Shown: positions 23,790 through 26,572 of the stretch, in pieces
Numbering within the stretch: position 1 is the first letter of the stretch
How the letters are laid out: every line of letters starts with the position of its first letter
DNA from: Deltaproteobacteria bacterium
Lineage (GTDB): Bacteria; Bdellovibrionota; Bdellovibrionia; Bdellovibrionales; JAMPXM01
Assembly (NCBI GenBank): GCA_017302795.1
Contig: JAFLCB010000010.1
Span: 98,065-162,064 of the forward strand
Direction of reading: 5' to 3'
DNA length: 64,000 bases
Position numbers and translations under genes: made by a program
The notes under the pieces: model-generated
Seen by the model: only the letters and a program-made list of their open reading frames with translations
What the model was told of the DNA's origin: nothing
Databases searched by the model: none

Positions 23790-24524
23790 ATGAACGATAG
23801 CCCCTTGGTCCGTGTATCAAAAATTATGGCTGAACGCGGAATATGCTCCCGTCGTGAAGCCGATGCTTGGATGGAAAAAGGATGGGTCAAAGTAGACGGT
23901 CAAATCGTCTCTGTTGGCCATAAAGCAAAGCTGGATTGCCAAATCGAAATCTCACCCGGCGCTCGGGAAGAGCGAGAGGATCGCGTAACCATACTCATGA
24001 ATAAGCCTATTGGGTTTGTTTCCGGTCAACCTGAGCCGGGTTACGAACCGGCGGTGCGCCTTATCACCCAAGAGAATCATGTTCTATCGCGAGGCGAACC
24101 CACCTTAGATCGACGTCACTTCGCAGGACTTGCCCCTGCTGGGCGCCTGGATATCGATTCAAAGGGGCTACTTGTTTTCACCCAAGATGGAAGGGTGGCG
24201 AGAGAGCTGATAGGCGAAAATTCTGAAATCGAAAAAGAATATCTCGTCCGAGTAAAAGGAAAAATCGTGCAGGGCGGTTTAAAGCTGCTCAACCACGGGC
24301 TAGAACTGGATGGCGAGGCACTTAAGCCAGCATTTGTTGAATGGATCAACGAAGATCAATTGCGATTCATTTTGACCGAGGGAAAAAAACGGCAAGTCCG
24401 TCGGATGTGCGAATTGGTCGGACTCGGAGTGCTCGGCCTAAAGCGAGTTCGGATAGGAAAAGTCATGCTAGGACATCTTCCTGACGGTAAATGGCGCTTT
24501 CTGCGACCAGATGAGAGTTTCTAA
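23790..24524 (+). CDS. RsuA/RluB/RluF-family rRNA pseudouridine synthase
   Basis: About 244 residues. An S4 RNA-binding domain ([27 protein letters not shown]) precedes the pseudouridine synthase domain, whose catalytic Asp lies in [17 protein letters not shown]. The end [13 protein letters not shown] and LKRVRIG is the usual RluB/E/F signature. It isomerises a uridine in ribosomal RNA; the exact position (RluB-, RluE- or RluF-type) cannot be told. The start is put at the ATG giving [11 protein letters not shown]; a TTG 21 codons upstream would only add a hydrophobic non-conserved stretch. Confidence 0.88.
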
Positions 24525-24525
24525 C

Positions 24526-25149
24526 ATGATCTTTGAGCGTTTAGATCGAGGAATCCTTTCTGTCGATATTGGAAAGCTCAAAGCCCACATTGCGGATCAT
24601 GTTTTACCTCTTGAGCCGATTATGGTCGGTCCTTATTTCGGTGGCTGGTCGGTTTGGTCCTCAGATGGAGACTACAAAGACGGATATCAACGGGGGCAGT
24701 TGATGTATGAACCAAGCTTTATGCCGGGTTCTTCGATAAAGGAAAAAGCGGAGGCGCTAGGAATCAAACCGCGAGAAATGTACCGCATCCCTACTTCCAT
24801 TTGCTTTGGATATCTGGCGGAAACCGTCAATCATATTCGCGCCATTGGCCTAGAGCCAGCTCGCGTTCGCCTCTCGCTGCTGAAAGCTGGTGGACAATCT
24901 ACAAAGCACCGCGATGCACCTGAAGGGCGCTACAGCATCCGCCTACATATTCCCATTCTGACAAATCCCCAGGCGGTTTTTTCTTGTGACGACGAGATTA
25001 CGCATATGCCGGCTGATGGTTCGGCTTACATCATCGATGTCAGCCGCGAACATCAAGTCTTCAACCACGGGACGTCTGACCGTATAATTCTTTTGGCCGA
25101 TATTGTCGACCGTCCCTGGATCACCCAGTTTCATCGTCGTCCACTGTGA
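24526..25149 (+). CDS. Aspartyl/asparaginyl beta-hydroxylase-like 2-oxoglutarate/Fe(II) oxygenase
   Basis: About 207 residues with the family signature: LLKAGGQSTKHRDAPEGRYSIRLHIPI gives the H-x-D iron ligands (His ~128, Asp ~130) and the region AYIIDVSREHQVFNHGTSDRI supplies the distal His and the Arg that binds 2-oxoglutarate. Members hydroxylate Asp/Asn side chains of peptides or proteins, or act on small molecules. The ATG at 24526 has GAGAG upstream and begins 1 bp after the pseudouridine synthase stop. It ends 76 bp before a small secreted peptide and a multinuclear iron oxygenase, so it might be a second tailoring enzyme for that peptide; that link is only positional. Confidence 0.8.
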   Translation: MIFERLDRGILSVDIGKLKAHIADHVLPLEPIMVGPYFGGWSVWSSDGDYKDGYQRGQLMYEPSFMPGSSIKEKAEALGIKPREMYRIPTSICFGYLAETVNHIRAIGLEPARVRLSLLKAGGQSTKHRDAPEGRYSIRLHIPILTNPQAVFSCDDEITHMPADGSAYIIDVSREHQVFNHGTSDRIILLADIVDRPWITQFHRRPL

Positions 25150-25189: not shown

Positions 25190-25225
25190 TTCTAAAAATG
25201 CTCGTATTCTGCTATGCTTACAAGA
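25190..25225 (+). promoter_or_regulatory. Possible promoter of the small-peptide/DUF692 pair
   Basis: TGCTATGCT resembles an extended -10 box (TATGCT at 25213-25218) and would start transcription at or just before the ATG at 25226. That would fit a leaderless message, because no Shine-Dalgarno is visible ahead of that ATG. The -35 is weak. Low confidence; read-through from the upstream hydroxylase gene is equally possible. Confidence 0.3.
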
Positions 25226-25453
25226 ATGTCAAAACATCACTTAGTAATCAAACTCGCAGTGCTTGGCTTTTTGATCCTTCCTGGCACTTCACTTGCCAAA
25301 CCAGCTGTCGAAAAAACCGGCGCAAAAAACGATGCCCAGGCTCCGACGACAAATTCTCCGAAAACGACCGGCGGAAAGTCGAAAATAGACAAAGAGAAAT
25401 TAAAACTTAAACATGCGCTCGGCGGCGGTTGCATGAAATGCGGGATGGGGTAG
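25226..25453 (+). CDS. Small secreted Cys-tailed peptide, candidate RiPP precursor
   Basis: A 75-residue peptide with an N-terminal signal sequence (MSKHHLVIKLAVLGFLILPG, cleavage after T-S-L-A), a ~40-residue Lys/Thr/Pro/Ala-rich linker that looks disordered, and a Gly-rich C-terminus GGGCMKCGMG holding the only two Cys. Its stop codon TAG is followed immediately by the ATG of the DUF692 oxygenase, whose ribosome site (GGGATGGGG) lies within this gene's last codons. Family knowledge: DUF692/MNIO enzymes modify Cys of short precursor peptides (methanobactin, 3-thiaglutamate, bufferin pathways), and some precursors carry signal peptides. I infer that this is the substrate and that the CxxC tail is the modified core. 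An ATG 12 bp upstream is an alternative start. Confidence 0.75.
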   Translation: MSKHHLVIKLAVLGFLILPGTSLAKPAVEKTGAKNDAQAPTTNSPKTTGGKSKIDKEKLKLKHALGGGCMKCGMG

Positions 25454-26572
25454 ATGTTAAAGACTGGTCTCAGTCTTCTTCCGAGTAATGATTACGAACT
25501 CGTTCTTACTGAAAGCGCTTTACCAAAAGATCTCACTCTTGAGCTAACGCTCGACACATTTCATAGCGAATCCGAGCATCCGAATTGGTACACCGAAGCG
25601 ATCAATCAGCACCTTCGAACCGGCGGATCATTTATCGGACATCTTGTTTCTTGGCCTGTCTTTGGGCAATGGCAGAAAGAGCGAGAGCAGGAATATTTCG
25701 AGCTCGTTCGTTCCCAAGTCACCCGCCTAGGAATTCAGGATCTTACGATTCACTATGGAAGCCTCGCCTCCGATCGCAATACTTTACTCCCGCCTGTACC
25801 TCTTCCCCACACTCAATACACAAAAACGAGCTTGAAAAACCAAATGCGGCGCCTTCAGGAAGCCGTTAACTGCAAGGTTGGTGTCGAGATACTGGCGCTC
25901 GCTGTTTCCAAAGAAGATGTCCTCTGGCAACTCGACACGATTGCTGAAGTGTCGGAGCAAGCCGACACTTATGTGCATCTCGATTTTCATAACCTTTTTT
26001 GCCAGTCCGTGAATTTCGGAGCAGATTTCGGAGAGCTTTTGTCCCGGCTTCCACTGGGCCGAATTCGGCATGCCCATATCAGCGGCGGAAGCCAGTCGCT
26101 TCATGGGAAAAACCCCGTACCCTTTCGCCGAGATACCCATGACGATCATGTACCTGAGGAACTGTGGAGCCTTTTGGAGCATTGGCTTGGAAGTCTCACA
26201 AATCTTTCGACAATTACTTTCGAACGAATTGCGGGTTCTTTCGATGATTCGCCTTTAACCAGAACATCGGTCGTTCGAGAGCTACTTCGTCTCAACGACC
26301 TCGTCATCCGCCAGAATAAAGCTGAATACAATCGCACAAACCGACATTTAACAGATCGAAATTTACGTGACTTTGCGAACAAACGTGAAACAAACCCGGC
26401 CGACATTCAATTGTTGAATCCGATAGCTGCTGAGGTCTTGATTGAGCTAATCAGAAATCAAGATGTTCATAAGCTTTCCAAGCTTTACTCAGCTCAAAAT
26501 TCAAACACGGCAGCCATCGATTTGCGAGCGGTCGACGCCGCTCGCCTAATTTTAGAAAAGTGGACGATTTAA
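25454..26572 (+). CDS. DUF692/MNIO-family multinuclear iron-dependent oxidative enzyme
   Basis: A 372-residue protein whose first ~280 residues match the TIM-barrel DUF692 (MNIO) family. Candidate iron ligands are all present in order: His63 in GSFIGHLVSW, His100 in IHYGS, Glu145 in GVEIL, Asp177/His179/Asn180 in HLDFHN, His208 in AHISGG, Asp227 and His229 in RRDTHDD, Glu257 in TFERI; the PLPHTQYTK segment matches the family's PLPYTEE. These enzymes use a mixed-valent iron cluster to convert peptide Cys into oxazolone/thioamide, thiooxazole or related groups. The last ~90 residues are helical and not recognised; no separate partner (DUF2063/MbnC type) is adjacent, so this tail may replace it. 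The start abuts the stop of a Cys-tailed secreted peptide. Confidence 0.85.
   Translation: MLKTGLSLLPSNDYELVLTESALPKDLTLELTLDTFHSESEHPNWYTEAINQHLRTGGSFIGHLVSWPVFGQWQKEREQEYFELVRSQVTRLGIQDLTIHYGSLASDRNTLLPPVPLPHTQYTKTSLKNQMRRLQEAVNCKVGVEILALAVSKEDVLWQLDTIAEVSEQADTYVHLDFHNLFCQSVNFGADFGELLSRLPLGRIRHAHISGGSQSLHGKNPVPFRRDTHDDHVPEELWSLLEHWLGSLTNLSTITFERIAGSFDDSPLTRTSVVRELLRLNDLVIRQNKAEYNRTNRHLTDRNLRDFANKRETNPADIQLLNPIAAEVLIELIRNQDVHKLSKLYSAQNSNTAAIDLRAVDAARLILEKWTI

Follow-up and report, generated by a model that had tools for sequence, protein, structure and literature searches.

Does a gene for a small exported peptide, followed without a gap by a gene for a DUF692 oxygenase, represent a new RiPP system, as a preliminary description of this DNA proposed, or a kind of system already known? 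Our analysis of the window, by which we mean the whole stretch of 64,000 nucleotides, indicates that the locus adds a member to a known kind and that the reading as a new system fails, since partner-free two-gene loci with CxxCGMG-tailed precursors are the published Dyb/Chr subfamily (PMC12636315). We consider it probable that the locus is a highly diverged two-gene member of the ChrH/DybH (chryseobasin) subfamily of MNIO-modified RiPPs, with the mechanism proposed below. What is unusual about it is its divergence, that is, the sequence identity of its enzyme, a proline missing from the precursor tail, isoleucines at enzyme positions 99 and 146, and its absence from the other genomes that we searched in the order.

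Both open reading frames described earlier are present in the sequence, abutting as TAG-ATG. The first (25226 to 25453, forward strand) runs from an ATG at 25226, with an alternative ATG at 25214, to the TAG stop at 25453, and encodes a precursor peptide of 75 residues. By eye and by hydropathy we assign its first 24 or so residues to a signal peptide, in which a basic n-region precedes a hydrophobic core (residues 7-18, mean KD 2.7) and an S-L-A site, the sequence around the putative cleavage being MSKHHLVIKLAVLGFLILPGTSLA before the cut and KPAVEK...KHALGGGCMKCGMG after it. A K/T/P linker follows, the mature part is very basic (pI 9.8), and the tail GGGCMKCGMG stands at the extreme C-terminus; the signal-peptide-like N-terminus, the SLA site and the terminal CMKCGMG bear out the claim of an exported precursor with a Cys tail. 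Since the tail holds the only two Cys of the precursor, there is no lipobox, and the Cys at the signal cleavage site that characterizes the DAG-RiPPs (lipidated Dyb type) is absent. The codons of the recognition or modification motif C-M-K-C-G-M-G (25430 to 25450, forward strand) spell the motif published as CPxCGxG (PMC12636315), with the difference that the Pro after the first Cys is Met in this precursor. No Pfam or NCBIfam family matches the peptide above cut-off. The enzyme starts at 25454, the base directly after the precursor stop, and a purine-rich GGGATGGGG within the last precursor codons (25442 to 25450, forward strand) is, from its sequence, likely to be the ribosome site for the enzyme, which would couple the translation of the two genes. 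A scan for promoters and terminators gave nothing exceeding shuffles.

The second frame (25454 to 26572, forward strand) encodes a ChrH-subfamily MNIO (DUF692) enzyme of 372 residues with a TIM barrel at about residues 1-266. It scores 78.6 bits against PF05114, where the gathering cut-off is 25, and by alignment it keeps, as H63, H100, E145, D177, N180, H208, D227, H229 and E257, all nine iron ligands of TglH (H71, H107, E151, D184, N187, H216, D229, H231 and E258; positions from PMC10880893), so that its identification as a DUF692 enzyme with the expected ligands was correct. Motif blocks are likewise retained, LDxHNLxCQ..NF and RRDTHD among them. At near-invariant positions other than the ligands the enzyme is far freer, keeping 29 of 56, and it has I99, I146, H206 and Q214 where Glu, Asn, Glu and Trp are near-invariant (E99I, N146I, E206H, W214Q); E99I and N146I adjoin iron ligands, and both had been missed before. 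An AlphaFold2 model (pLDDT 80, pTM 0.78) predicts the TIM barrel and, less confidently, C-terminal helices; its best structure matches are TglH and MbnB. The C-terminal extension (residues 267-372; 26252 to 26569, forward strand), earlier put at about 90 residues and called unassigned, is indeed there but can be assigned: the NCBIfam profile MNIO_ChrH aligns as far as residue 370, and the model places predicted helices at 267-301, 324-334, 338-348 and 357-371 (low to medium confidence, with pLDDT of about 40-65 from residue 301 on), as in a ChrH-type helical domain.

That profile is the top NCBIfam match of the enzyme (148 bits over residues 28-370, extension included), while HvfB and BufB reach 71 and 61 bits in alignments that both end at residue 254. 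The cut-off of the ChrH equivalog NF050165 is 600 bits, and the 148.4 bits of the window enzyme lie far below it, which makes the enzyme a subfamily member and not ChrH itself. Our own profile built from 77 ChrH-like enzymes gives it 194 bits and a profile of the other MNIOs 71 bits; none of those other MNIOs scores above 85 on the ChrH-like profile. In a tree of 108 MNIOs the window enzyme falls with the ChrH-like enzymes (support 99), on a very long branch of 4.05 changes per site, and a second tree (58 rows, with the relative L003, described below, left out) recovers a ChrH-like clade that includes it with support 100/99.9. Its identity to this clade is about 30%.

How well is the tail conserved beside such enzymes? 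We retrieved relatives' loci by the enzyme only, obtaining 82 (80 named genome contigs, a Hymenobacter plasmid and L003), and since the gathering patterns contained conserved ChrH motifs, very divergent members may be missing from the set. An ORF ending in CxxCGxG occurs in 79 of the 82 ChrH-like loci, so the small ORF is conserved beside the enzyme in relatives; in all but one of the 79 it lies closely, and usually directly, upstream of a recognised enzyme, the exception being L099, where our script did not recognise the enzyme. Within the fetched flanks of the ChrH-like loci of Obscuribacter (L075) and Chitinophagales (L069) no such ORF was found, and their precursors may lie elsewhere or be of a different type. 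We also looked for one, and found none, at a Polyangiaceae locus (L097:2923-5127), where by eye a single frame of 734 codons apparently fuses a ChrH-like MNIO to an alcohol-dehydrogenase-like domain. Elsewhere, one Bacteroidota enzyme (L066) is preceded by three ORFs, with tails CNKCGLG, CGPCGMG and CPACGRG, and a 308-codon frame near an MNIO match (L034:92-1018) has a Gly/Ser/Cys-rich end (GSSCGSSCGSSCGGGGCGGGCGGCGGD). The Pro after the first Cys is present in 77 of 87 tails of the ChrH-like clade; the ten tails that lack it include ones from Myxococcota, Omnitrophota, Cyanobacteria and one Chryseobacterium (L079, CVACGMG). In the present sample, then, this Pro does not define the subfamily.

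Within the phylum, the preliminary description had suggested a search for similarly ended ORFs. The pattern CxxCG[M/L]G-stop occurs 19 times in 369 genomes of the phylum, but only at the window site does it end a signal-peptide ORF and adjoin an MNIO. The pairing of precursor and enzyme is not chance. The sole close relative in the phylum sample is L003, whose enzyme is 38% identical over 200 residues and whose precursor, a signal-peptide ORF ending in ...REPCLACGLG, overlaps its MNIO gene. L003 shares with the window enzyme the loss of E99, W214 and other residues; it differs in retaining N146 and in that its C-terminal domain is mostly absent. The remaining MNIOs of the phylum form another clade, and several adjoin Cys-rich, bufferin-like ORFs; at six of these loci (L004, L006, L012, L015, L026, L029) we noted that ORFs upstream have a signal peptide and repeated motifs of the Cys-Lys-Gly type, which gives them a bufferin/oxazolin-like appearance. 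The window's own genome yielded no convincing further substrate ORF ending in CxxCG and a hydrophobic residue followed by Gly, and a search for viral relatives gave none.

Gene anatomy, subfamily membership, tail conservation and iron ligands are thus direct observations, and among characterized systems they are closest to two. DybH and its relatives are partner-free enzymes with an extra C-terminal helical bundle, encoded in minimal loci with a precursor ending in CPxCGxG (PMC12636315). DybA/DybH of Dyadobacter crusticola (L087 in our set), ChsAH and HymAH from that study share with the window the two genes, the precursor directly upstream, the CxxCGxG tail, the C-terminal helical domain and the lack of a partner protein; the earlier observation that no separate partner is encoded here therefore describes the normal anatomy of the subfamily. 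Dyb precursors, however, are lipoproteins with a third Cys, processed by signal peptidase II, their tails have CPAC where the window has CMKC, and their enzymes are about 25-30% identical to ours. In not being lipidated the window precursor resembles ChrA of Chryseobacterium, whose CPACGMG tail is modified by ChrH (PMC10214503) and whose enzyme family profile matches the window enzyme over its full length; yet the operon of ChrH is larger and includes ChrI, and the product is S-methylated (+10 Da), whereas the window locus has two genes. TglHI and MbnBC (structures 8hi7, 7tcr and 7dz9) share the TIM barrel and nine iron ligands but require partner proteins, act on other substrates and have no C-terminal helical domain.

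What chemistry might these two genes perform? For the reaction, its independence of a partner and the order of events we infer from published relatives at about 30% identity or less. DybH alone removes 4 Da from CPACGMG, forming a macrocycle and a hydantoin, and the seven-residue tail alone suffices for its recognition (PMC12636315). By analogy, the two tail Cys of the window peptide would most likely yield a macrocycle and a hydantoin (-4 Da), with export of the peptide through signal peptidase I, and the earlier expectation that modification falls on the Cys tail is then probably right. The precursor would be synthesised with its signal-peptidase-I signal, and ahead of export the cytoplasmic multinuclear iron enzyme would bind the C-terminal CMKCGMG tail directly, aided by its own C-terminal helical domain instead of a partner protein. 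The second Cys would then undergo a four-electron oxidation that depends on O2, in which Fe(II)/O2 takes a hydrogen from the beta carbon of this residue, the next two residues, Gly and Met, contribute their backbone amides to a rearrangement to the hydantoin (imidazolidinedione), and the thiol of the first Cys bonds to the former second Cys, closing the macrocycle with a net change of -4 Da, or +10 Da with a possible S-methylation. The modified peptide would then be exported and cut after SLA, so that a basic peptide of about 51 residues, its modified tail rigid, would reach the periplasm or the exterior.

Identity of about 30%, the long branch, the lost near-invariant residues and the missing Pro mean that the product could differ or the reaction have changed. 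The locus could have the same family and substrate but another product, the loss of Pro together with E99I, N146I and W214Q having altered the reaction so that oxidation of the tail does not end in the chryseobasin macrocycle and hydantoin. We regard this as unlikely, if worth keeping in mind: several of the near-invariant positions replaced on this long branch are shared with L003 and with no other non-Pro member compared, but the nine iron ligands, both Cys and GMG are all kept, the ring residues of DybA are tolerant (the -4 Da change also occurs with CPPC and CPAAC; PMC12636315), and non-Pro tails are also found beside canonical enzymes. Because those other non-Pro members, including every one compared for E99 and W214 apart from L003, keep the canonical residues, the enzyme changes cannot be a simple response to the loss of Pro. 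In an extended form, the window enzyme and L003 would stand apart within the ChrH subfamily as a branch of their own, with changed ligand neighbours and the turn-forming Pro lost, whose modification of CxxCG[M/L]G tails is a different one, a proposal to which we give about one chance in six.

The diverged chryseobasin-type locus that we favour must also be placed in its genome. The pair has a pseudouridine synthase and an Asp/Asn hydroxylase upstream and, by sequence, an acyl-CoA dehydrogenase downstream. The congener G197 has an empty site, hydroxylase and dehydrogenase lying some 35 bases apart with neither pair gene between them, and a second congener, G194, carries there a methionine-sulfoxide-reductase-like ORF (L163:2002-3117) that has a signal sequence and lies between pseudouridine synthase and acyl-CoA dehydrogenase; this suggests that the interval between the latter two genes is a variable insertion site. 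The upstream Asp/Asn beta-hydroxylase-like gene (PF05118; window 24511-25149) has paralogues in its own genome, with five matches there including itself, and in congeners. We considered it as a dedicated tailoring enzyme and reject that role, because G197 has the hydroxylase without the pair and because of the five matches in the own genome. A search of 140 further genomes from the order gave no ChrH-like relative at E <= 1e-12, the one additional match (G202) belonging to the other MNIO clade. The empty site and this absence imply that the two genes form a discrete cassette, which was either acquired here or dropped by the relatives, and the GC content of the cassette (47% vs 48%) shows no sign of recent foreign origin.

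The same absence, the empty site and the fast divergence would also suit an acquired cassette in decay, its enzyme drifting and by now inactive, but this is improbable, as the frames are intact, the TAG-ATG coupling is retained, and an enzyme changed over about 70% of its sequence still has nine of nine ligands, with the tail motif preserved in full. The copper- or metal-binding RiPP of the bufferin or methanobactin kind first inferred, for which an MNIO beside an exported Cys peptide and the bufferin/oxazolin look of the phylum's other MNIO loci might speak, is very improbable indeed, and membership in those families is ruled out, because the enzyme scores with ChrH and clearly lower with BufB and HvfB despite the common superfamily and Sec-exported Cys-containing precursors, the locus shows neither a DUF2282, 6/12-Cys or EGKCG precursor nor a DUF2063-type partner (the precursor had rightly been called unlike bufferins and methanobactin), and the product of DybH has no thioamide- or oxazolone-type absorbance (PMC12636315), leaving metal binding without support here.

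Thus the locus extends the ChrH/DybH subfamily beyond the Bacteroidota, Cyanobacteriota, Myxococcota and Planctomycetota listed in the 2025 preprint. It also shows how far such an enzyme can diverge without change to its iron site or to the CxxCGMG tail, a natural test for the residues on which the chemistry depends. Finally, a minimal cassette of two genes, for which a congener supplies the clean empty site, would provide a simple deletion case, if the organism can be grown.
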